IMG/VR virus record: IMGVR_UViG_3300017917_000127
Location: 1-33,669 of that record
Strand: one strand, 5' to 3'
Origin: a virus
Length of the DNA: 33,669 bases
Part shown: positions 2,154-17,085 of the stretch, one piece after another
Numbering within the stretch: the stretch's first letter is position 1
Layout: each line of letters opens with the position of its first letter
Notes under the pieces: model-generated
The model's database searches: none
What the model was told of the DNA's origin: nothing
The model's input: only the letters and a program-made list of their open reading frames with translations
Translations under genes and position numbers: made by a program

Positions 2154-2804
2154 ATGTCAAAACAAGTTAGATTTAGAAGAGGAACTACAGCACAACACTC
2201 TGTGTTTACTGGTCCAGCTGGAGAGATTACAGTAGATACAGATAAGAAAGCACTAGTCGTACAAGATGGTGTTACTGCTGGTGGTATCCCTATTGCAAGA
2301 GCAGATCGCCAAAGAGGCTGGTCTAGAACAGAAATTTTCACTGCAAACGGCACTTGGACACAATCTGGTAAAACAGACCTAAAACGCATTATTGTTACTA
2401 TTTACGGTGGTGGAGGAGGTGGTTCTACTGCTGGCGGTGGACAAGGTGGAGTTGGATTAGTTGTTTTAGATACTGCAACAATAACTACAACTGTTGCAGT
2501 GACAATTGGATCTGGCTCCACTGGTACAGGTGGTACTACTAGTTTCGGTACATATATCTCTGCTACTGGTGGTACTGCTGCAAGTAGTACTACTGGCGGA
2601 GTTGGTGGAACAGCAACTGGTTCTGGAGTTTATAGTTTAGGTGCACAAAGTGGAAGCACTGCGCCTTACAATCCATCAACATCTTCACATGGTGGTGGTG
2701 AAGGAAGCAGTTCTACTATTAGGGGTGTTTTTGGTTCAGGTGGAGTAAATGCAACAGGTGGACAAGGTTGCGTTATAGTTGAAGAAATTTATGGTTATGT
2801 ATAA
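2154..2804 (+). CDS. Glycine-rich adhesin-like tail fibre protein, paralogue 1 of 3
   Basis: A 216-aa protein. Residues 1-55 (MSKQVRFRRGTTAQH..., then GEITVDTDKKALVVQDG, TAGGIP) match the N-terminal fold of phage receptor-binding proteins of the major-tropism-determinant type, which attaches the protein to the fibre. Residues about 75-82 form a strand, then a polyglycine region starts (YGGGGGG at 84-90) with further Gly/Ser/Thr-rich repeats to the end. The C-terminus is GGQGCVIVEEIYGYV. Glycine-rich motifs separated by variable loops are how the T2/T6-type gp38 adhesins display receptor-binding loops, so an adhesin role is inferred. The N- and C-terminal ends are shared with the next two genes while the middle differs. 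Confidence 0.7.
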   Translation: MSKQVRFRRGTTAQHSVFTGPAGEITVDTDKKALVVQDGVTAGGIPIARADRQRGWSRTEIFTANGTWTQSGKTDLKRIIVTIYGGGGGGSTAGGGQGGVGLVVLDTATITTTVAVTIGSGSTGTGGTTSFGTYISATGGTAASSTTGGVGGTATGSGVYSLGAQSGSTAPYNPSTSSHGGGEGSSSTIRGVFGSGGVNATGGQGCVIVEEIYGYV

Positions 2805-2858
2805 GGAGATAATTTAAATGTCAAAACAAGTTAGATTTAGAAGAGGAACTACAGTACA
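2762..2858 (+). repeat. 97-bp perfect direct repeat, copy 1
   Basis: This stretch is identical to 3483-3579, at an offset of 721 bp. It covers the conserved 3' end of one glycine-rich gene, its stop codon, the AAGGAGAT ribosome site and the first codons of the next gene. A shorter part (37 bp from the start codon) is also identical at 2154-2190. Confidence 0.95.
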
Positions 2859-3525
2859 ACATTCTAGTTTCACTGGTATTGCTGGTGAAGTTACTGTAGA
2901 TACAGATAAAAAAGTTCCTGTTGTACATAACGGATCTACTGCTGGTGGTATTCCTTTATTAAGAGAAGATCGCCCACGTGGAATGACTAAAATAGAAATT
3001 TTTACTACTACTGGAACTACATATACTATTGCAAATAAAACAGATTTAAAACGAATTCGTGTAACTGTTTATGGCGGTGGTGGTGGTGGTGGATCGTATT
3101 CTGGCGGTGGTATGGGTGGTTATGGATTTCGTACATTAGAACTTAATGAATTAACAACTAACACTGCTGTTACTATCGGCGCTGGCGGGGCAAGTGGCGC
3201 TGCTGGTGGTACTACATCTTTTGGAACATTTATTAGTGCATCAGGTGGCGGTGCTGGTGGTGGAAATGATGCAGGCGGTGCACCTGGTGCTGCTAGTGGC
3301 ACTAACGTAGTTAATCTTGGTGCACAGGGAGGAAGAAATGGTCAATATTATTCTCACCCTGCATATGGTGGATCATATTTTCCAAACAATGGAGCGGCTG
3401 GTGGTGGCTTTGGTGCTGGTAGGGCAGGTGGATCAGCTTTAGGTATCCGAGGTGGTGGTGGTGGATCTGGTGCAGCTGGTGCACAAGGTTGCGTTATAGT
3501 TGAAGAAATTTATGGTTATGTATAA
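2818..3525 (+). CDS. Glycine-rich adhesin-like tail fibre protein, paralogue 2 of 3
   Basis: A 235-aa paralogue of the preceding gene. Its first 16 residues differ from it at one position, and its last ten residues are the same (VIVEEIYGYV). The N-terminal attachment segment continues GEVTVDTDKK...VVHNGSTAGGIP and RPRGMTKIEIF. The glycine-rich body (from about 84, YGGGGGGGS) includes GAGGASGAAGGTTSFGTFIS and AGGGNDAGGAPG, plus a Tyr/His-containing insertion QYYSHPAYGGSYFP not found in paralogue 1. Such aromatic loops in a polyglycine frame are good candidates for receptor contact. It starts 13 nt after paralogue 1 with an AAGGAG ribosome site, so the two are co-expressed. Confidence 0.7.
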   Translation: MSKQVRFRRGTTVQHSSFTGIAGEVTVDTDKKVPVVHNGSTAGGIPLLREDRPRGMTKIEIFTTTGTTYTIANKTDLKRIRVTVYGGGGGGGSYSGGGMGGYGFRTLELNELTTNTAVTIGAGGASGAAGGTTSFGTFISASGGGAGGGNDAGGAPGAASGTNVVNLGAQGGRNGQYYSHPAYGGSYFPNNGAAGGGFGAGRAGGSALGIRGGGGGSGAAGAQGCVIVEEIYGYV

Positions 3526-3579
3526 GGAGATAATTTAAATGTCAAAACAAGTTAGATTTAGAAGAGGAACTACAGTACA
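3483..3579 (+). repeat. 97-bp perfect direct repeat, copy 2
   Basis: Identical to 2762-2858; both copies straddle a gene junction (end of one glycine-rich gene, ribosome site, start of the next). Recombination between them would remove or add exactly one 721-bp gene unit. Confidence 0.95.
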
Positions 3580-4264
3580 GCACTCATCATTTACTGGTGC
3601 TGTAGCAGAAGTTACTGTAGATACAGATAAAAACGTAACAGTAGTTCATGATGGTGCCACAGCAGGTGGTGTTCCTTCTGCTCGTGAAGATCGTCCACGT
3701 GGAATGACTAGAACAGAAGTTTTTAGCACTGTCGGAGCTTCAACATGGACATCAACAGGTAAAACAGACTTAAAACGTATCATCGTTACTTGCTATGGCG
3801 GTGGTGGCGGTGGTGGTGCCAACGCTGGTGGCGGTTCTGGTGGAATTGGTACTAGAACTATTGAACTTGCAGATATAACCACTAACGTAACAGTTACTGT
3901 TGGTGCGGGTGGTGCCTCTAACGCTGCTGGTGGTACTACATCTTTTGGAACATATATTTCGGCTACTGGCGGTGCAGCAGGTTCTGGTACTAGTCCTGGT
4001 GACGGTGGTACAGCTAGTGGAACTAACGTAACTATTTTAGGTGGACAACGTGGCCAATCATATGGTTCAGCTAGCGTTGGAACATATTATTTTGGTTACT
4101 ACCAAGTTGGACCAGTTAGCGTAGCTGCTAACGGTGCTGGTGGTGGAATCAGCGGTGGTGGTCGCAGGGGTGACAATGCCAATGGTATTACTGGCGGTGG
4201 CGGTGGAGCTGGTGCAGCTGGTGCACAAGGATGTGTTATCATTGAAGAAATTTACGGACTTTGA
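3539..4264 (+). CDS. Glycine-rich adhesin-like tail fibre protein, paralogue 3 of 3
   Basis: A 241-aa third paralogue, with the same attachment segment (MSKQVRFRRGTTVQHSSF, then EVTVDTDKN, VVHDGATAGGVP, RPRGMTRTEVF) and the same terminal motif (GAAGAQGCVIIEEIYGL). The glycine-rich body starts at about 88. It shares AGGTTSFGTYISATGG with its neighbours but carries its own loop YGSASVGTYYFGYYQVGP, again rich in Tyr. The variable material therefore sits in the last third, just before a conserved GGGGGAGAAGAQG stretch. The gene ends TTTGA and is followed after 16 nt by a small gene with its own AAGGAGAT ribosome site. Confidence 0.7.
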   Translation: MSKQVRFRRGTTVQHSSFTGAVAEVTVDTDKNVTVVHDGATAGGVPSAREDRPRGMTRTEVFSTVGASTWTSTGKTDLKRIIVTCYGGGGGGGANAGGGSGGIGTRTIELADITTNVTVTVGAGGASNAAGGTTSFGTYISATGGAAGSGTSPGDGGTASGTNVTILGGQRGQSYGSASVGTYYFGYYQVGPVSVAANGAGGGISGGGRRGDNANGITGGGGGAGAAGAQGCVIIEEIYGL

Positions 4265-4280
4265 TCTTAAGGAGATATAA

Positions 4281-4502
4281 ATGAGTCAATTATACACTAT
4301 TGCACATATCAAGAATGGTGCAGTTGAAAATACATGCGTTTGGGACAGAATCCCTAATTCTACAGATGATGCCGCATTCGGCAGCTACGAATATGTAAAC
4401 GTTACTGGTTCTCCAGTTAGTATTGGGTGGGAATATGCTGATGGCGTTTTCACTAATCCAGAAGATGTTACCCAAGTTTGGTCTGTTCCTGCTGGAGAAT
4501 AA
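4281..4502 (+). CDS. Small fibre-associated protein (73 aa), possible assembly factor
   Basis: A 73-aa protein starting MSQLYTIAHIKNGAVENTCVW and ending with a GWEYADGVFTNP segment plus a short tail. The G-W-x-Y-x-x-G-x-F-x-x-P hairpin is common in small phage proteins encoded directly after fibre genes, including tail-fibre assembly chaperones. It is the fourth and last gene of the glycine-rich block and is followed at once by a terminator. The 'three paralogues, then one small gene' order repeats three more times downstream, supporting a helper role. A minor structural protein is the alternative. Confidence 0.55.
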   Translation: MSQLYTIAHIKNGAVENTCVWDRIPNSTDDAAFGSYEYVNVTGSPVSIGWEYADGVFTNPEDVTQVWSVPAGE

Positions 4503-10991: not shown

Positions 10992-11516
10992 ATGAGTATT
11001 TTAAAAGTCTCTGGACTAAAAGATCTTAGTGGTAATACCATACAATCTGTAGCACAGATAGTATCAACTCAAAAAACCGATTCTTGGTATTCTAGTACTA
11101 CTTTATGGACAGATATTCCTGGTATGTCAGTAGTTATAACACCAACTGCAGCGTCTAGTAAAATATTAGTCTTAGTTTCTATACAATTTACTACTAGTGG
11201 ACATGCTGGCATTAGATTATACAGACATCAAAATCCTATAGCATTTGGAAACCCAACAGGTAATAGAACATTTGCGTTTGATTGGTATTATGGAACTAGT
11301 AGTTATAATACCGCTGGATATCCAAGAACAAATAAAGGTGGTCATTGGTTAGATTCCCCGAATACTACTTCTGCTATTGAATATAAAGTTCAATATGCTG
11401 CACCATATAGTAGCAGTTACTATATTGGTGTTAATTACAATCCTTATGATAATAGTAATGCAACATGGAATGCATCTACTGTGTCAACTATACATGCAGT
11501 GGAGTTTTTACAATGA
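10992..11516 (+). CDS. Cassette A, tip paralogue 1 (beta-sandwich fibre protein, 174 aa)
   Basis: A 174-aa protein with the family A pattern: short N-terminal segment (MSILKVSGLKDLSGNTIQSV), QKTDSWYS, W-T-D-I-P-G-M-S-V-V-I-T-P, SSKILVLV, GHAGIRLYR, YGTSSYNTAGY, WLDSPNTTSAIEYKVQYAAP and YIGVNYNPY. This is the common environmental-phage fibre domain where 'ITPTS..SKILV' strands and a 'DSP.TTSA..Y' loop make a beta sandwich. It lies 3 nt after the upstream gene, and its stop overlaps the next start. It is one of three similar genes in a row; the natural reading is receptor-binding tip protein, but the receptor is unknown. Confidence 0.65.
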   Translation: MSILKVSGLKDLSGNTIQSVAQIVSTQKTDSWYSSTTLWTDIPGMSVVITPTAASSKILVLVSIQFTTSGHAGIRLYRHQNPIAFGNPTGNRTFAFDWYYGTSSYNTAGYPRTNKGGHWLDSPNTTSAIEYKVQYAAPYSSSYYIGVNYNPYDNSNATWNASTVSTIHAVEFLQ

Positions 11517-12031
11517 GTGTAGTGAAAGCTAATAAATGGTTTAATTTAGATGAAGTACAGATGACGCCATATGTACAAGCAGTTACTGTTCAAAAGACTG
11601 ACACATTTTATAGTAATTCTACATCTTGGATAGATGTTACTGGTTTATCATTAACTATAACTCCAACATATGCAACAAGCAGAATAATGTTATACATATT
11701 TTTACATTTTTCTAGTGCTGGACATGGGGGCATGAGGTTGCTTAGAAATGGTACTGCGATAGCCATCGGAGATTATCAACAGTCAAATATTAATAGGGCT
11801 ACTTTTTGGCAATATGGTACAACGAGTTATAATACAGTAGGATATGATGCTGATAATAAAAGTATGGTTTGGGTAGATTCTCCCAACACAACATCTGCTG
11901 TTACATATAAATTTCAATATATTATTCCACAAGGTGGATATGTTGGGGTTAATTATAACGCATATACTGATCCAGATAGTAATTGGAACTATACTGTTCC
12001 TTCTTCTATCACTGCATTTGAGGTTCAATAA
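11513..12031 (+). CDS. Cassette A, tip paralogue 2 (172 aa)
   Basis: A 172-aa member of family A: QKTDTFYSNSTSWIDVTGLS, LTITPTYATSRIMLY, GHGGMRLLRNGTAIAIGD, YGTTSYNTVGYD, WVDSPNTTSAVTYKFQY and YVGVNYNAY. The start at 11513 is chosen over an upstream in-frame ATG (11465) because it makes an ATGA overlap with the preceding stop and gives the MSVVK... N-terminus expected from its paralogues. The N-terminal 20 residues (KANKWFNLDEVQMTPYV) differ most from the other two. This is where the protein would meet the fibre shaft or its partners. Confidence 0.65.
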   Translation: MSVVKANKWFNLDEVQMTPYVQAVTVQKTDTFYSNSTSWIDVTGLSLTITPTYATSRIMLYIFLHFSSAGHGGMRLLRNGTAIAIGDYQQSNINRATFWQYGTTSYNTVGYDADNKSMVWVDSPNTTSAVTYKFQYIIPQGGYVGVNYNAYTDPDSNWNYTVPSSITAFEVQ

Positions 12032-12558
12032 TGACACACTTGAATATATCAGAATTACGTGATTTAAATAATGTTAAAATAAAAACTTCTGCGCAAATAG
12101 TCACTGCACAAAAAACTGATACATGGTATAGTAATTCTACATCATGGATAGATGTTCCTGGGCTTTCTCTAAATATAACACCATACAGTAATACTAGTAA
12201 AGTATTTGTTATAGTTAAACTTTCTCATAGTTGTTATGGACATGGAGGGTTTAGACTTTATAGAAATTCTACATTAATTGCAGCAGGAGATCAAAGAGGT
12301 TCTAATAGAATATCAGAATTATTTGATTTTTATGGTACTAATAGTTACAATACTGCTGGATGGGAACCAAGAACCAGAATAGCATATTGGTTAGACTCAC
12401 CAGCAAGTAGTTCTGCATTAACATATAAAATACAGTTTGCAGTACCGCACAGTAGCAGTTATTATGTTGGAGTTAATTATAATGCATACTCTAATGATAA
12501 TTACTCATATAATTATAATACATCTTCCTCATTAACAGCAATGGAGATAATACAATGA
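12031..12558 (+). CDS. Cassette A, tip paralogue 3 (175 aa)
   Basis: A 175-aa member of family A, overlapping the previous stop as TAATG. Conserved blocks: AQKTDTWYSNSTSWIDVPGL, GHGGFRLYRN, AAGDQRGSN, YGTNSYNTAGW, YWLDSPASSSALTYKIQF and YYVGVNYNAYS. It shares SNSTSWIDV with paralogue 2 and SSYYxGVNYN with paralogue 1, so all three are close relatives. Its isoleucines are overwhelmingly ATA codons, unlike gp23, where ATC dominates. Translational coupling continues into the small gene that ends the cassette. Confidence 0.65.
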   Translation: MTHLNISELRDLNNVKIKTSAQIVTAQKTDTWYSNSTSWIDVPGLSLNITPYSNTSKVFVIVKLSHSCYGHGGFRLYRNSTLIAAGDQRGSNRISELFDFYGTNSYNTAGWEPRTRIAYWLDSPASSSALTYKIQFAVPHSSSYYVGVNYNAYSNDNYSYNYNTSSSLTAMEIIQ

Positions 12559-12890
12559 GAGCAGCGAAAGTAATATTAAAACTTAGACCAGGTGCAGAAT
12601 TTTCGCTAAATGGCGATATTGTTTGGCAAACAGATTCACAAGGTGTTACATTAGCTAGTAATATTGACTGGCATACTCAAACACAACCTATCACTAAACA
12701 AGAATATGAATCAGTTTTACAAGAAGTTATTGACGAAGAACCAAAACAATATCAGATTGATAGAGCTATGGCATATCCATCGTTGACACAATTAGCTGAT
12801 GCAATTTACTGGCAGTCTCAAGGTGATAATTCTAAAATGGAAAAATATCTTGCAGATGTTAAATTAGTAAAAGATACATACCCAAAATAA
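12555..12890 (+). CDS. Cassette A small protein (111 aa), possible tip chaperone
   Basis: A 111-aa, mostly helical and charged protein, very different from its beta-rich neighbours. It starts with a short beta part (LKLRPGAEFSLNGD and a WQTDSQG segment). The C-terminal half has the motif YPSLTQLADAIYW...KMEKYLADVKLVKDTYPK, shared with the last genes of cassettes B and C. Small proteins with this 'R-x-x-Y-P-S...D-x-x-Y-W...VK-x-x-Y-P' ending are common next to fibre genes in environmental myoviruses and are usually annotated only as hypothetical. Role as an assembly chaperone for the preceding three proteins is inferred from position, helicity and one-per-cassette occurrence. Confidence 0.6.
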   Translation: MRAAKVILKLRPGAEFSLNGDIVWQTDSQGVTLASNIDWHTQTQPITKQEYESVLQEVIDEEPKQYQIDRAMAYPSLTQLADAIYWQSQGDNSKMEKYLADVKLVKDTYPK

Positions 12891-12891
12891 A

Positions 12892-13593
12892 ATGCCTTCA
12901 TACGCTAAGATTGATCGTTGGAACAGGCTTGATGGTACGCCATATAATAATGTCATTCAAGTCAATCAAACCATTTTAACTAATGGTGATTATAGCGTGT
13001 CATTTTCTGGTGGTGCGCCAGATATAGATCAAGCATACAATAACGCAAGTTATCCACAAGGAGTATATACTGCTAATGCTTATGATCAATATGCTGGTGG
13101 TATGTCTCCAAGCGGATGGTATGTAGTACCTGATTTTAGTGTCAAAATAAAACCCAGACTATTAACTAGTAAAATATTAGTTATGCTCGAACTAACATAT
13201 GGTTCTTCATACTGGGAAGTGCAAGGTAGAATAATTAGAAATGGTGTTGGCATCGGGCTTGGTAAACCACGTGGTTCTAGGTTTGCATGCACGTTTGCAG
13301 ACAATAACTATGAACATCCTTCTAGCTACTCAGAATATTCAACATATAAAGCATCAGTTACATTGTTAGATGATCCGTTTGAATCACTTCAAGATGGAAC
13401 AGCATCAGGAACTAACAGCAGCGAAGCTACGGCTGGACCAATTTCTTCAATACAAACACTAGAATATTGGGTAGAATTAAATTCTTATGCTGGGGAAACA
13501 ATAACTGTTAATAGACCACAGTATACAAATAACGACACATCATATTGGGCTGAGCCAATATCTACATTAACAGTTATGGAGGTGACTTCATAA
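12892..13593 (+). CDS. Cassette B, tip paralogue 1 (233 aa)
   Basis: A 233-aa member of family B, starting MPSYAKIDRWNRLDGTPYNN one base after the previous stop. Shared core: VKIKPRLLTSKILVMLEL, SSYWEVQGRIIRNGVGIGLG, PRGSRFACTF, TLLDDPFESL, WVELNSYAGETITVNRP and ISTLTVMEV. It is about 55 residues longer than its two paralogues because of two insertions, one near residues 30-75 (AYNNASYPQGVYTANAYDQY) and one near 165-185 (SLQDGTASGTNSSEATAGPI). Those additional loops are the best places to look for distinct receptor specificity. In place of the usual DSP..TSA loop it has a DDPFES variant. Confidence 0.65.
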   Translation: MPSYAKIDRWNRLDGTPYNNVIQVNQTILTNGDYSVSFSGGAPDIDQAYNNASYPQGVYTANAYDQYAGGMSPSGWYVVPDFSVKIKPRLLTSKILVMLELTYGSSYWEVQGRIIRNGVGIGLGKPRGSRFACTFADNNYEHPSSYSEYSTYKASVTLLDDPFESLQDGTASGTNSSEATAGPISSIQTLEYWVELNSYAGETITVNRPQYTNNDTSYWAEPISTLTVMEVTS

Positions 13594-14132
13594 TGTCTAC
13601 ACTAAAATTTGATAAATGGTTAAATGCTGATGGTACTGTTAGACAAACAATAGTACAAGTTGTACAATCAGTTAAAACAGATACTTACGCTGGTTCTAGT
13701 ACTGATGTCTGGTTAGATACAGGATTTACTTGCTCCATAACTCCTAAATTTAATAAAAGTAAAATATTACTAATTATGACTCTCATGGGCGCATCTAGTT
13801 ATTGGGAAATGGCTGGAAAGTTTCAAAGAAAAATAGGTGCTGGTGTAGCTGTTGATGTTGGCACTGGTAATCGTGGAACACAAGATAATGCGAATATGGG
13901 TGCTGGATTTATTCACAGTCATTATATGAATAACTACAAAAGTTTTTGGTATCCGTGTAATTATACACTGTTAGATTCTCCAGAAACAACATCCGCAGTA
14001 GAGTATAGATTATGGCTAAATCCTTATAGTTCAAATACAGTTTATATTAATAGAACATTTTATGATGAAAATAGCGCTGACTACCATGGTTGTCCTATTA
14101 GCACTATAACATTAATGGAGGTTGCTGGATAA
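13593..14132 (+). CDS. Cassette B, tip paralogue 2 (179 aa)
   Basis: A 179-aa member of family B, coupled to the previous gene by TAATG. It begins MSTLKFDKWLNADGTVRQTI and has SVKTDTYAG, a C-S-I-T-P strand, SKILLIMTLMGASSYWEMAG, TLLDSPETTSAVEYRLWLNP, YINRTFYDENSADYHG and PISTITLMEV. The Y-W-E motif and the N-R-T/P motif are the family B signatures, absent from family A. The region between about 80 and 120 (GVAVDVGTGNRGTQDNANMG, HSHYMNNYKSFWYPC) differs from both sisters. Likely a tip protein acting with genes 1 and 3 of the cassette. Confidence 0.65.
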   Translation: MSTLKFDKWLNADGTVRQTIVQVVQSVKTDTYAGSSTDVWLDTGFTCSITPKFNKSKILLIMTLMGASSYWEMAGKFQRKIGAGVAVDVGTGNRGTQDNANMGAGFIHSHYMNNYKSFWYPCNYTLLDSPETTSAVEYRLWLNPYSSNTVYINRTFYDENSADYHGCPISTITLMEVAG

Positions 14133-14659
14133 TGTCCTCTGTAATGAATTTTACAAACTGGCAAAACTCTGCTGGAACGGCACAACAAACTGTACTTCAA
14201 GTTAAACACACAGTGAAACGAGACGTTTGGAGCGGTGGTGGTAGTGGTACTACTTGGTATAGCGTTACTGGATTAAGTGCTACTATAACACCAACATCTT
14301 CTAACAGCAAAATTTTAATTATGGTTAGATTAATAGCAGGAACACAATACTGGGAAATACAAGGTAGGGTTACCAGAAATAGTACAGCAATTGGATTAGG
14401 AACTGTAAGAGGAAATAGACAAGCATGTGGTTTTGCTCATCTTAAATATGATAGTGGCTATGACTATTATGACTGGTTCCCTATGCAATATACTTACTTA
14501 GATTCACCAGCAACAACTAGTGCACTAACGTATCAGGTAGATTTAAATCCTTACGGCACTAATACAATTTACGTAAACAGAACACATAACGATAGTGATA
14601 GTTTAGATTATATGGGTGCGCCATCTTCTACTATTACACTAATGGAGATCTCAGCATGA
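14132..14659 (+). CDS. Cassette B, tip paralogue 3 (175 aa)
   Basis: A 175-aa member of family B, again coupled by TAATG. It starts MSSVMNFTNWQNSAGTAQQT and carries SGGGSGTTWYSVTGLSATIT, SKILIMVRLIAG, YWEIQGRVTRNSTAIGLG, VRGNRQACGF, YLDSPATTSALTYQVDLNPY, IYVNRTHNDSDSLDYMG and SSTITLMEIS. The stretch YWE-x-Q-G-R-x-x-RN...IGLG...RG-x-R-x-A-C is shared closely with paralogue 1, and LDSPxTTSAxxY is shared with paralogue 2. The family therefore looks mosaic rather than simply descended by one duplication order. Confidence 0.65.
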   Translation: MSSVMNFTNWQNSAGTAQQTVLQVKHTVKRDVWSGGGSGTTWYSVTGLSATITPTSSNSKILIMVRLIAGTQYWEIQGRVTRNSTAIGLGTVRGNRQACGFAHLKYDSGYDYYDWFPMQYTYLDSPATTSALTYQVDLNPYGTNTIYVNRTHNDSDSLDYMGAPSSTITLMEISA

Positions 14660-14964
14660 TTATTGAAGCATTAAAAAGTTTAAGACCTAATTGTTCTTAC
14701 AGCGTCAACGGAGATACTGTTGATGGTATTAAATGGTTAAGCGATCCGTCATTAAGACCTACAGACGCAGAAATTATAACAGAATCTTTAAGATTAGAAG
14801 AAATAAAAAGATTACAAATGTACAAAATGAAACGTATGCATGAGTATCCTCCTATGACAGATTTTGTAGACGCTTGGGTTAAAAATGATGAGACTGCTTT
14901 AGAATCATATAGACAAAAGTGTATTGCAGTAAAAGAAAAATATCCAAAACCTGAAGGTCTATAA
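14656..14964 (+). CDS. Cassette B small protein (102 aa), possible tip chaperone
   Basis: A 102-aa protein in the fourth slot of cassette B. Start codon overlaps the preceding stop (ATGA). It opens with LKSLRPNCSYSVNGDTVDGI, comparable to LRPGAEFSLNGD of the cassette A small protein, so those two are clearly related along their length. A long charged helix follows (ESLRLEEIKRLQMYKMKRM), then HEYPPMTDFVDAWVKND and a C-terminal QKCIAVKEKYPKPEGL. It has the same YP...VK-x-K-Y-P-K-P ending as the other cassette helpers. Function as a dedicated chaperone is inferred. Confidence 0.6.
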   Translation: MIIEALKSLRPNCSYSVNGDTVDGIKWLSDPSLRPTDAEIITESLRLEEIKRLQMYKMKRMHEYPPMTDFVDAWVKNDETALESYRQKCIAVKEKYPKPEGL

Positions 14965-15566
14965 TGTCAGTTAGTTTTACTGGTATCGGTGGGTATAAAG
15001 AAGCACTACCAAATGGTGCAGTGCTACAGACAGCTGTAGCCACAAATAACACACCAGCCAGCAAAGTATTCTCAAGCAGATCTGTTTATGAAGAAGTGCC
15101 TGGAACTCTTAGAGTTTCTATTACACCAAGATCAAAGTATTCAGTATTTGTCGCCCGAGCACACATTTATTGGGGTGGGTGGAATGGTAGTACAGATGTT
15201 TCACCATTGTTTAGGATTTATTGGGGTTCTTCATTAGGATCATACACAAAACCACTTGGACCGTTTTGGGGAGGTGGTGCCGTTTCTGGAAACGCAAATT
15301 ATCCGCATGGAGTTAATACAGGAACATATCATTACGGTTTTGGTGATAATAATCACAGTGCACAGTCAGACCAAATACTTACAGTCGGTACTGCCAATGA
15401 TGGAACAAGTAATACAAAGTATTTTGCATTGATGTGGGCGTGTGGTTATGAGGCAAACACCAGAACGATTTATTGGAATAGAAGTATTAACACAAGCAAT
15501 GCATATAATCCTTATCATAACTGCACCTTGGCTATATCAGAAATATTAGTAAAGGACAAAGTATGA
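14964..15566 (+). CDS. Cassette C, tip paralogue 1 (200 aa)
   Basis: A 200-aa member of family C, coupled to the previous gene by TAATG. It begins MSVSFTGIGGYKEALPNGAV and has S-V-Y-E-E-V-P-G-T-L-R-V-S-I-T-P, AHIYWGGWNG, LFRIYWG, TGTYHYGFGDNN, ALMWACGYEANTRTIYWNRS, AYNPYHNCTL and a final SEILV strand. The signature blocks (H-x-x-W-G-G, GTYxYxxGDxN, MWACGYxxxxRTxxWNR, YNPxHxCT) are family C-specific. The overall 'P-G-x-L-x-x-x-I-T-P' beta-sandwich layout resembles families A and B at a distance. Likely a receptor-contacting tip protein. Confidence 0.65.
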   Translation: MSVSFTGIGGYKEALPNGAVLQTAVATNNTPASKVFSSRSVYEEVPGTLRVSITPRSKYSVFVARAHIYWGGWNGSTDVSPLFRIYWGSSLGSYTKPLGPFWGGGAVSGNANYPHGVNTGTYHYGFGDNNHSAQSDQILTVGTANDGTSNTKYFALMWACGYEANTRTIYWNRSINTSNAYNPYHNCTLAISEILVKDKV

Positions 15567-16144
15567 GTATTATTATTTCTGCGGGTAACCCTGGACTATC
15601 AAATGGTCATCCTAGTGGTACAGTTTTACAATGTGCTTGGGGTTTTAATACCGTCAATGGCTCTGCTACATTCGGCACCAGAAGTATATTCGGTCATGTT
15701 CCAGGTAAATTATTTTGTGAAATAAAACCATTAGCAGTCAATAATAAGATTGTAATAGACGCCCATTTATTTTGGGGTGGATGGCAAGGTACAGATATTG
15801 CAGTTAATTTTAGAGTAATGAAACGTGTCAATGGAAGTAGATGGACATTTGCTGGTATGTATGGTGGTGATCCTGTGCCTGGAACATCAGGAACGTATGG
15901 TGTAGCAACTGGAGAATATATTTACAGAAGAGGTAGTGGCGATTCTAATTCTTCGTCAAAATCAGATAATCTACAAGTTGAGGACACTGTAACATCTACT
16001 GACATTCATCAATATGCAATTATGTGGGCATGTGCATATGATGCAAACAGCAGAACATTGTTATGGAATAGAGCTAACAATTATGGTAATAGTTATAACC
16101 CACACCATACCTGCACTATTGTAGCTACGGAGTATCAAGCATGA
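15563..16144 (+). CDS. Cassette C, tip paralogue 2 (193 aa)
   Basis: A 193-aa member of family C, overlapping the previous stop by four bases. It has GHPSGTVLQCAWGFNTVNGS, FGHVPGKLFCEIKP, DAHLFWGGWQGTD, VNFRVMKRVNGSRWTFAG, GEYIYRRGSGDSNSSSKSDN, IMWACAYDANSRTLLWNRAN and YNPHHTCTIVATEYQA. Compared with paralogue 1, the N-terminus and the segment between the W-G-G-W and G-E-Y-I-Y blocks vary most; the back half is highly conserved. A role in the same complex as its two sisters is inferred from coupling and equal copy number. Confidence 0.65.
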   Translation: MSIIISAGNPGLSNGHPSGTVLQCAWGFNTVNGSATFGTRSIFGHVPGKLFCEIKPLAVNNKIVIDAHLFWGGWQGTDIAVNFRVMKRVNGSRWTFAGMYGGDPVPGTSGTYGVATGEYIYRRGSGDSNSSSKSDNLQVEDTVTSTDIHQYAIMWACAYDANSRTLLWNRANNYGNSYNPHHTCTIVATEYQA

Positions 16145-16731
16145 GTTTAACGTTTACCCCAACAGCAACACAAGCAGTAGCTTATTCTGATATACCTTCT
16201 GGTCATACCATTCAGATGGCTTATGGGCAAAATACAACTAATGGAACAAAAGTATTTTCAGCTTGGAATACTTTTGAAGCAGTTCCAGGAGGATTGTCTT
16301 GCACAATAACACCAAAAGCAGTTGGAAATATAATGCTTATACAAGCACACTTGTTCTGGGGTGGCTCTAACTACCAGTCTAACGACTGTGCAGCAAATTT
16401 TAGGATTTACAAATCTATAAATGGTGGATCTACATATACTTCAGCTGGTACATATTACACAGATGCTGGGCTTGGGCAACAAGCTGTTATCGGTGTAGCC
16501 ACTGGAACTTACCTTTATAACTGGGGTGACTCAAACGCTAGTGCTTTAGATGATCATATTCTTATGTATGACACTGTTTCTAGTACTAACTCTACTATTT
16601 ACGCTGTTTGGTGGGCATGTGGATATGCGCCGAGCAGCAGAACTTTATACTGGAATAGAACAGTAAATACTGGAAACTCTTACAACCCAACTCACGTTTG
16701 CTCAATAACTGTAAAAGAAATAAAGGCATAA
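16141..16731 (+). CDS. Cassette C, tip paralogue 3 (196 aa)
   Basis: A 196-aa member of family C, overlapping the previous stop by four bases. It has PSGHTIQMAYGQNTTNGTKV, AVPGGLSCTITPKAVGNIML, AHLFWGGSN, ANFRIYKSINGGSTYTSAG, TYLYNWGDSNASALDDHIL, VWWACGYAPSSRTLYWNRTV and YNPTHVCSITVKEIKA. It is closest to paralogue 2 (shared 'P-S-G-x-x-x-Q', 'AHLFWGG', 'NFR'). It ends three nt before the fourth gene of the cassette. The tip role is inferred as for its sisters. Confidence 0.65.
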   Translation: MSLTFTPTATQAVAYSDIPSGHTIQMAYGQNTTNGTKVFSAWNTFEAVPGGLSCTITPKAVGNIMLIQAHLFWGGSNYQSNDCAANFRIYKSINGGSTYTSAGTYYTDAGLGQQAVIGVATGTYLYNWGDSNASALDDHILMYDTVSSTNSTIYAVWWACGYAPSSRTLYWNRTVNTGNSYNPTHVCSITVKEIKA

Positions 16732-16734
16732 ACT

Positions 16735-17085
16735 ATGAAAGCACAACAAAAGAAACTAGAATTGTTAGACGTAATTCAATCTATTCAATCTAAAACAGAA
16801 GGATCTGAAACTTGGTCTTATACTATACTAGGAGATAAATTTCCAGAAAATGAAGAACAGTATTATTCTACAGTGTTTTTTAGTTTTGGAACAAAACCTA
16901 CTTGGGATCAAGTTCAGGCTGAATTACCTTTAGTTCAACAGAAATTTGAGAACGAAAAATACAAATATTCTAGAATTAATGAATATCCTTCTTTAGAAGA
17001 CCAGCTTGATATGATTTTTCACGGAGGTGTAGATGAGTGGAAAGCTAAAATTCAAGAAATAAAAGATAAGTATCCTAAACCATAA
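16735..17085 (+). CDS. Cassette C small protein (116 aa), possible tip chaperone
   Basis: A 116-aa charged protein and last gene of the fibre polycistron. Residues 1-20 are a helical, Lys/Gln-rich start, followed by a WSYTILGDKFPENEEQYYST segment and a second charged helix (PLVQQKFENEKYKYSR). The C-terminus carries INEYPSLEDQLDMIFHGGVD and WKAKIQEIKDKYPKP, the clearest version of the motif shared by the cassette A and B helpers. Its N-terminal half differs from theirs, as expected if that half recognises the different family C proteins. The stop codon overlaps the late promoter of the neck genes. Confidence 0.6.
   Translation: MKAQQKKLELLDVIQSIQSKTEGSETWSYTILGDKFPENEEQYYSTVFFSFGTKPTWDQVQAELPLVQQKFENEKYKYSRINEYPSLEDQLDMIFHGGVDEWKAKIQEIKDKYPKP

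Follow-up and report, generated by a model that had tools for sequence, protein, structure and literature searches.

Three quartets of genes, A, B and C, each consisting of three paralogous fibre heads and one small helper, are located at positions 10992–17085 of a virus record. The record (IMG/VR; 33,669 bases) was analysed at its full length and is called the window. A sequence-only reading had proposed the quartets, and the twelve genes are confirmed here; all twelve ORFs (A1 to hC) are intact and lie on the + strand. The three-quartet arrangement is more than chance, and it is repeated in two independent contigs. From several lines of evidence, the favoured reading is that the three paralogues of each cassette assemble 1:1:1 into one heterotrimeric head, a proposal for which we consider the chances to be evenly balanced. 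Phage fibre tips are usually homotrimers encoded by one gene.

Gene layout and genomic setting

The window appears to be part of the genome of a T4-like marine myovirus. Fibre and adhesin genes come first, followed by genes for the neck, tail sheath stabiliser, large terminase, sheath, tube, portal, protease and major capsid protein. The quartets are flanked by the trunk gene K and by neck genes (from 17117 on). At the same position, the nearest backbone relative (L287) has different heads, and a further four backbone relatives (L288–L291) showed no recognisable head gene of this kind. As the head content differs among these relatives, the region from K to the neck genes is best explained as a swappable host-recognition island. 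DNA-level searches with the region were uninformative.

The features are listed in Table 1. The genes are tightly coupled, and the junctions match the overlaps of 1–4 nt and gaps of 1–3 nt given previously. In cassette A, K and A1 are separated by 3 nt, and the overlaps are 4 nt (A1/A2), 1 nt (A2/A3) and 4 nt (A3/hA). Cassette B follows after a gap of 1 nt (hA–B1), with overlaps of 1 nt (B1/B2), 1 nt (B2/B3) and 4 nt (B3/hB). Cassette C overlaps hB by 1 nt (hB/C1), followed by overlaps of 4 nt at both C1/C2 and C2/C3 and a gap of 3 nt at C3–hC. For A2, an upstream ATG at 11465 is the less likely start, and 11513 is most likely. RNA folding of three junctions of cassette A gave no signal beyond shuffles.

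Table 1. Trunk, head and helper genes of the island.
Feature	Position	Strand	Evidence
K, fibre trunk protein, presumed anchor for the heads, 241 aa	10263..10988	+	C-terminal HMM; tail-fibre PHROGs; 75% identical K in L287
A1 head, 174 aa	10992..11516	+	phrog_6942 C-terminus, 1.1e-11
A2 head, 172 aa	11513..12031	+	Within-cassette paralogy; start overlaps A1 stop by 4 nt
A3 head, 175 aa	12031..12558	+	phrog_6942 C-terminus, 5e-10
hA, cassette A helper, 111 aa, likely tail-fibre assembly chaperone	12555..12890	+	phrog_9114, 1.8e-10; orthologues
B1 head, 233 aa, inserts of ~34 and 22 residues	12892..13593	+	Within-cassette paralogy
B2 head, 179 aa	13593..14132	+	phrog_6942 C-terminus, 1e-13
B3 head, 175 aa	14132..14659	+	phrog_6942, 2e-16; AlphaFold model TNF/C1q-like
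hB, cassette B helper, 102 aa	14656..14964	+	phrog_9114, 9.7e-14
C1 head, 200 aa	14964..15566	+	phrog_6942 C-terminus, 6e-4
C2 head, 193 aa	15563..16144	+	phrog_6942 C-terminus, 3e-4
C3 head, 196 aa	16141..16731	+	AlphaFold model TNF/C1q-like, pLDDT 73.6
hC, cassette C helper, 116 aa	16735..17085	+	phrog_9114, 8.1e-21

According to its sequence, K is the fibre trunk and the presumed anchor for the heads. Its C-terminus is the motif AGPITINNGVTVTIPDGSTWTVV, which is also C-terminal in the trunk gp17 of P-SSP7, and it matches tail-fibre PHROGs in a profile search. Using an HMM of this motif, 125 proteins were detected in the loci of relatives at an E-value of ≤0.01, and the matches precede head genes in about 100 cassettes. 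These loci are mostly metagenomic, their genes were called by a simple script, and the layouts are incomplete where a contig ends.

Heads and helpers

The heads are 44–49% (A), 37–46% (B) and 39–47% (C) identical within cassettes, and about 21–35% identical across them. Those of A and B match the tail-fibre C-termini of phrog_6942 (2e-16 to 6e-10 for those heads that were scanned and gave a match; no direct match for B1), and this homology bears out the earlier assignment as fibre heads. Three distinct head families had also been claimed. The heads of A and B clearly belong together in a single family, whereas C is more distant, with weaker phrog_6942 matches (E 3e-4 to 7e-4) and the same predicted fold. 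No usable match for the heads was found in Pfam or NCBIfam, and for the C-family heads the phages collection gave no match and viral_contigs just two relatives. The N-terminal ~22 residues resemble each other within a cassette but not across cassettes (mean score 24.9 versus 6.7).

According to the AlphaFold models of B3 and C3, and to the sequence kinship of A with B, the heads are predicted to be TNF/C1q-like jelly rolls. The B3 model is confident (pLDDT 91) and matches the TNF-like lectin PLTL (9ib7; Z 14.3, 1.9 Å over 124 residues), the pGP3 C-domain (4jdn; Z 14.3) and BC2L-C (2wq4; Z 13.9). The C3 model is of middling confidence and matches 4jdn (Z 10.7) and 9ib7 (Z 10.4). The matched solved TNF/C1q-like proteins are trimers, and both models are thus predicted to have a fold of the trimeric type.

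All three helpers share the C-terminal YP...K.xYPK region noticed in the sequence-only reading, one such gene is present in each quartet, and all belong to phrog_9114. Orthologues of hA are 69% identical in L127 and 41% identical in L126. Genes of this family sit directly downstream of the head genes in most cassettes. The helper families phrog_9114, phrog_1787 and phrog_2687 carry no functional annotation in PHROGs, and the helper of RN05-S was labelled 'tail assembly chaperone' by its submitters. No Pfam match above the cut-off and no NCBIfam match was obtained for the helpers. From these sequence relationships, each helper is most likely the assembly chaperone of its head family.

Conservation and variation of the number three

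Three 3+1 quartets are also present in two distant relatives, L127 with L125 (one contig, about 63% identical) and L126. The orthology between the window and L127/L125 is strictly diagonal for all nine subunits. In the comparison with L126, the correspondence is position by position for B, but not for C. The first cassette of L126 carries a different head family, D, and again consists of three genes and an A-type helper. The third D gene starts with GTG at about 2848. Another relative, L293, has a short run of N inside its B3 gene.

In the tree, the triples of A, C, L126-D, L102 and S-WAM2 each form one clade with 99–100% support; therefore, they look like separate triplications. Either each family was triplicated on its own and stopped at three, or the copies were homogenised within the cassette. 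HTVC010P has another 3+1 set with an unrelated head family (gp30–32, and gp33 annotated as 'tail fiber assembly'). The S-WAM2 set is gp161–159 + gp158. At 38% identity, about 290 loci contained 26 tandem pairs and 16 tandem triples of paralogues, several of the pairs belonging to triples or to non-fibre genes and several of the triples to one glycine-rich family. No same-family tandem run longer than three was found in these loci.

'Exactly three per helper', as the quartets had been read, does not hold as a general rule. Relatives have one head per helper (HTVC025P, HTVC024P, Kolga, MED4-184 and AP013543), two (L049 and L061) or four with one helper (L045, and Lederberg, in which one gene crosses the record start). 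L287, in which K is 75% identical, has five heads and a single helper: g1, the pair g2/g3 (46% identical) and the pair e1/e2 (50% identical). As a counting rule, three per helper was therefore dropped. Relatives with one, two or four paralogues per helper, named as refuting cases in the sequence-only reading, thus exist; nevertheless, all three subunits are kept in every cassette of the A/B/C family seen (three genomes).

A second kind of three was found in podovirus- and siphovirus-like relatives, including P-SSP7. Here the trunk K precedes three slot proteins whose N-termini are unrelated to each other: alpha (INGTTGI...), beta (SGGGSVSLQAPS...TLPD) and gamma (VNSIxxxxAITL...). One of each per trunk is present in 41 of the 44 unique fully labelled cassettes, against at most 22 in 20,000 label shuffles; the N-terminal models were seeded from the same loci, and the cassettes, which group into no more than three trunk clusters, are not independent trials. 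Three genomes with two trunks (L120, L161 and L178) carry an alpha–beta–gamma set behind each. The helper arrangement varies in this class (abc-h, ab-h-c or a-h-b-h-c-h). The third slot gene, often 314–395 aa long, is also present in loci with no more than two TNF-like heads. In several cyanophage contigs, this longer gene and its own partner of 53–63 aa lie just downstream of two such heads. 'Three per trunk' fits this class better, but the rule has exceptions in L177 (four) and L287 (five).

Heads are swapped between slots: some pairs share as much as 85% identity in the head but have unrelated slot N-termini. Slots may also hold unrelated heads, and the S74 intramolecular chaperone was detected in the alpha slot of L108 (7e-11) and L060 (1e-4) and in the first slot of L034 (1.5e-9). 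S74 is known as a homotrimer. The slot proteins carrying it are very likely homotrimers, and thus for the podovirus/siphovirus class it is simplest to assume that each slot takes a single homotrimer.

Proposed assembly of the heads

In the proposed assembly, each head would attach to the trunk end through its short N-terminal segment, the fourth gene of the quartet would act as the assembly chaperone for that head family, and the three paralogues would form one 1:1:1 head, as in C1q or the DSLV2 tail. One phage would thus offer three heterotrimeric heads, A, B and C. By analogy with TNF-like lectins, the heads may bind glycans at the subunit boundaries. In BC2L-C, the sugar is bound between two protomers (PMC7024360), and the sugar site of the TNF-like Bdellovibrio MAT fibre tip Bd2439 is also located between protomers (PMC10769870). 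With such sites between neighbouring subunits, a head made of three distinct chains would have three distinct sites.

Heterotrimers of three paralogues are known from other systems. Human C1q is an A:B:C heterotrimer within the TNF/C1q superfamily (PMC5153404); its head (1pk6) is a jelly roll of the same type and is matched by the B3 model with Z 9.4, lower in the match list than the trimeric TNF-like lectins. However, C1q is eukaryotic and has a collagen stalk, so that only the fold is in common. According to the report on the DSLV2 virophage (PMC12724248, 2025), three consecutive tail paralogues (QIG59353–55) with a position-locked phylogeny make one receptor-binding head; they co-purify at ~55 kDa as a 1:1:1 heterotrimer, as indicated by co-expression and native PAGE. 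The fold there is of the T4 gp37-tip/collar type, in contrast to the TNF-like heads of the window, DSLV2 is a virophage and not a phage, and no mention of a cognate helper gene was found there. A literature search for three-paralogue or heterotrimeric phage tips found the virophage paper and, apart from it, systems that are unrelated.

The fold, the repeated triplication, the retention of the subunits, the one N-terminal signature per cassette, the gene coupling and the virophage precedent argue for the heterotrimer. The variable counts in relatives, the homotrimers expected for fused heads, the S74 slots, the head exchange and the C subunits of L126, which are not position-matched, argue against it. 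The sequence-only interpretation is partly supported: the fibre-head identity, a fold of the trimeric type, the helper per set and the three subunits of each cassette stand, whereas the general rule of three does not.

Alternatively, each cassette may encode three homotrimers that share a chaperone, either as a mixture or at separate docking slots, the helper following the head family and not the trimer. This is quite possible, although we would not put it at even chances. The closest solved folds, BC2L-C and PLTL (Z about 14), and the Bdellovibrio MAT tips have the TNF-like fold predicted for the heads, and they are homotrimers from one gene. Heads fused to the trunk (S-SSM7, Kolga and MED4-184) are expected to be homotrimeric if the trunk is. 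In the solved fibre 9efk, the last 171 residues of orf22 (chain residues 488–658) match the head profile with E 1e-41; unlike in the window, head and trunk are one gene. The structure contains 18 chains, which suggests six homotrimers; no describing paper for it was found in the literature. Thus, a TNF/C1q-like head encoded by a single gene can as such be a homotrimer. The S74 slot proteins, the closely similar heads behind unrelated N-termini and the relatives with 1, 2, 4 or 5 heads per helper point in the same direction. However, homotrimers with a shared chaperone do not account for independent triplications that stop at three, for the retention of all three members in every A/B/C cassette seen, or for the single N-terminal signature of each cassette.

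The number three could also reflect the docking slots of the trunk and not the chains of a trimer, the window cassettes being derived from an alpha/beta/gamma set; this is unlikely. The slot count, the two-trunk genomes and the third slot gene beside two TNF-like heads are in its favour, as far as related lineages and models seeded from the same loci allow. In P-SSP7, the layout resembles that of the window: the trunk gp17 with the C-terminal motif, three coupled small heads (037–039) and a helper (040) ending in KDKYPKP. Nevertheless, the P-SSP7 heads have three different N-terminal slot types and a fourth head (041) lies beyond the helper, whereas the three members of each window cassette share one N-terminal type. 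Furthermore, nine heads behind one K are at odds with three slots, except if a whole cassette goes into each slot. In the literature on P-SSP7, no oligomeric state of its heads was found.

Both classes of cassette could be reconciled by supposing that each slot accommodates a single trimer, for which most phages use one gene and the lineage of the window three; the 1, 2 and 2 heads of L287 would then be consistent with trimers built from one or two chain types.

It is very improbable that the paralogues are a reservoir for switching receptor specificity, not all present in one virion: the island is hypervariable, with other heads in L287 and none recognised in L288–L291, but no recombination gene was seen among its ORFs, and the intact, translationally coupled ORFs favour joint expression. 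We rejected serial stacking in the order K–A1–A2–A3, since the heads all have the same kind of strand at their end and are freely exchanged.

Returning to the 1:1:1 heads, we tentatively suggest, as a wider reading that is rather doubtful, that marine phages repeatedly turned a homotrimeric TNF/C1q-like head into an obligate three-paralogue heterotrimer with a cognate chaperone, giving three heads with nine chains and up to nine different inter-subunit binding sites on one fibre type here. If the 3+1 cassettes build such heads, abundant ocean phages would recognise their hosts through composite sites at the boundaries of non-identical chains, and therefore the host range could be altered by changing single subunits. 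Should the heads be homotrimers instead, one trunk with three slot proteins, fixed N-termini and exchangeable heads still explains the swapping of receptor-binding heads, and this rule helps annotators to recognise them. Similar 3+1 layouts are present in the cultured phages P-SSP7, HTVC010P and S-WAM2.

The head domains of two pairs of fibre-head proteins from related loci (L123/L164 and L120/L164) are 79-85% identical, and the N-termini, which correspond to the slot part, are unrelated in both pairs. These results indicate recent head exchange between slots. In L287, the nearest relative of the window by backbone, a wholly different head island is located at the equivalent position, with its five heads arranged as 1+2+2 and a single helper.

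In many cases a head of 314-395 aa, which begins after an NRNLIINGAM motif, occupies the gamma slot. This long head is followed by its own gene of 53-63 aa, whose product ends near DYQEYLxWVAEGNT and is perhaps another type of helper. According to the comparison with L120 and L161, where each of two trunks precedes an alpha-beta-gamma series, P-SSP7 041 resembles what would be left of a second set of one trunk and three slot genes after loss of the trunk, alpha and beta genes.

Coordinates of the features
Feature	Locus and positions	Remarks
Similar heads in different slots	L123 2377-2928, L164 9373-9906
Similar heads in different slots	L120 2221-2793, L164 8471-9052
Head island	L287 5886-9834	On reverse complement of G001:C1:1-19000
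Long gamma-slot heads	L076 6696-7865; L113 7222-8409; L072 2290-3462
P-SSP7 gene 041	L008 4798-5439	Additional gamma-type head, downstream of helper
Oxygenase-like genes	L128 3467-6214; L041 4936-5532; L126 379-1029	Adjoin fibre trunk or head island
Glycine-rich adhesin-like paralogues (n=3)	Window 2154-4264	phrog_863/9648
73 aa gene	Window 4281-4502	After glycine-rich triple

The oxygenase-like genes of L128 and L126 were judged by eye; that of S-WAM2 is annotated as a 2OG-Fe(II) oxygenase.

The window also carries a fourth set of three paralogues plus one small gene. The adhesin-like paralogues show 63-69% mutual identity, and all nine related loci (L208-L216) possess exactly three glycine-rich paralogues and one gene of 71-87 aa.
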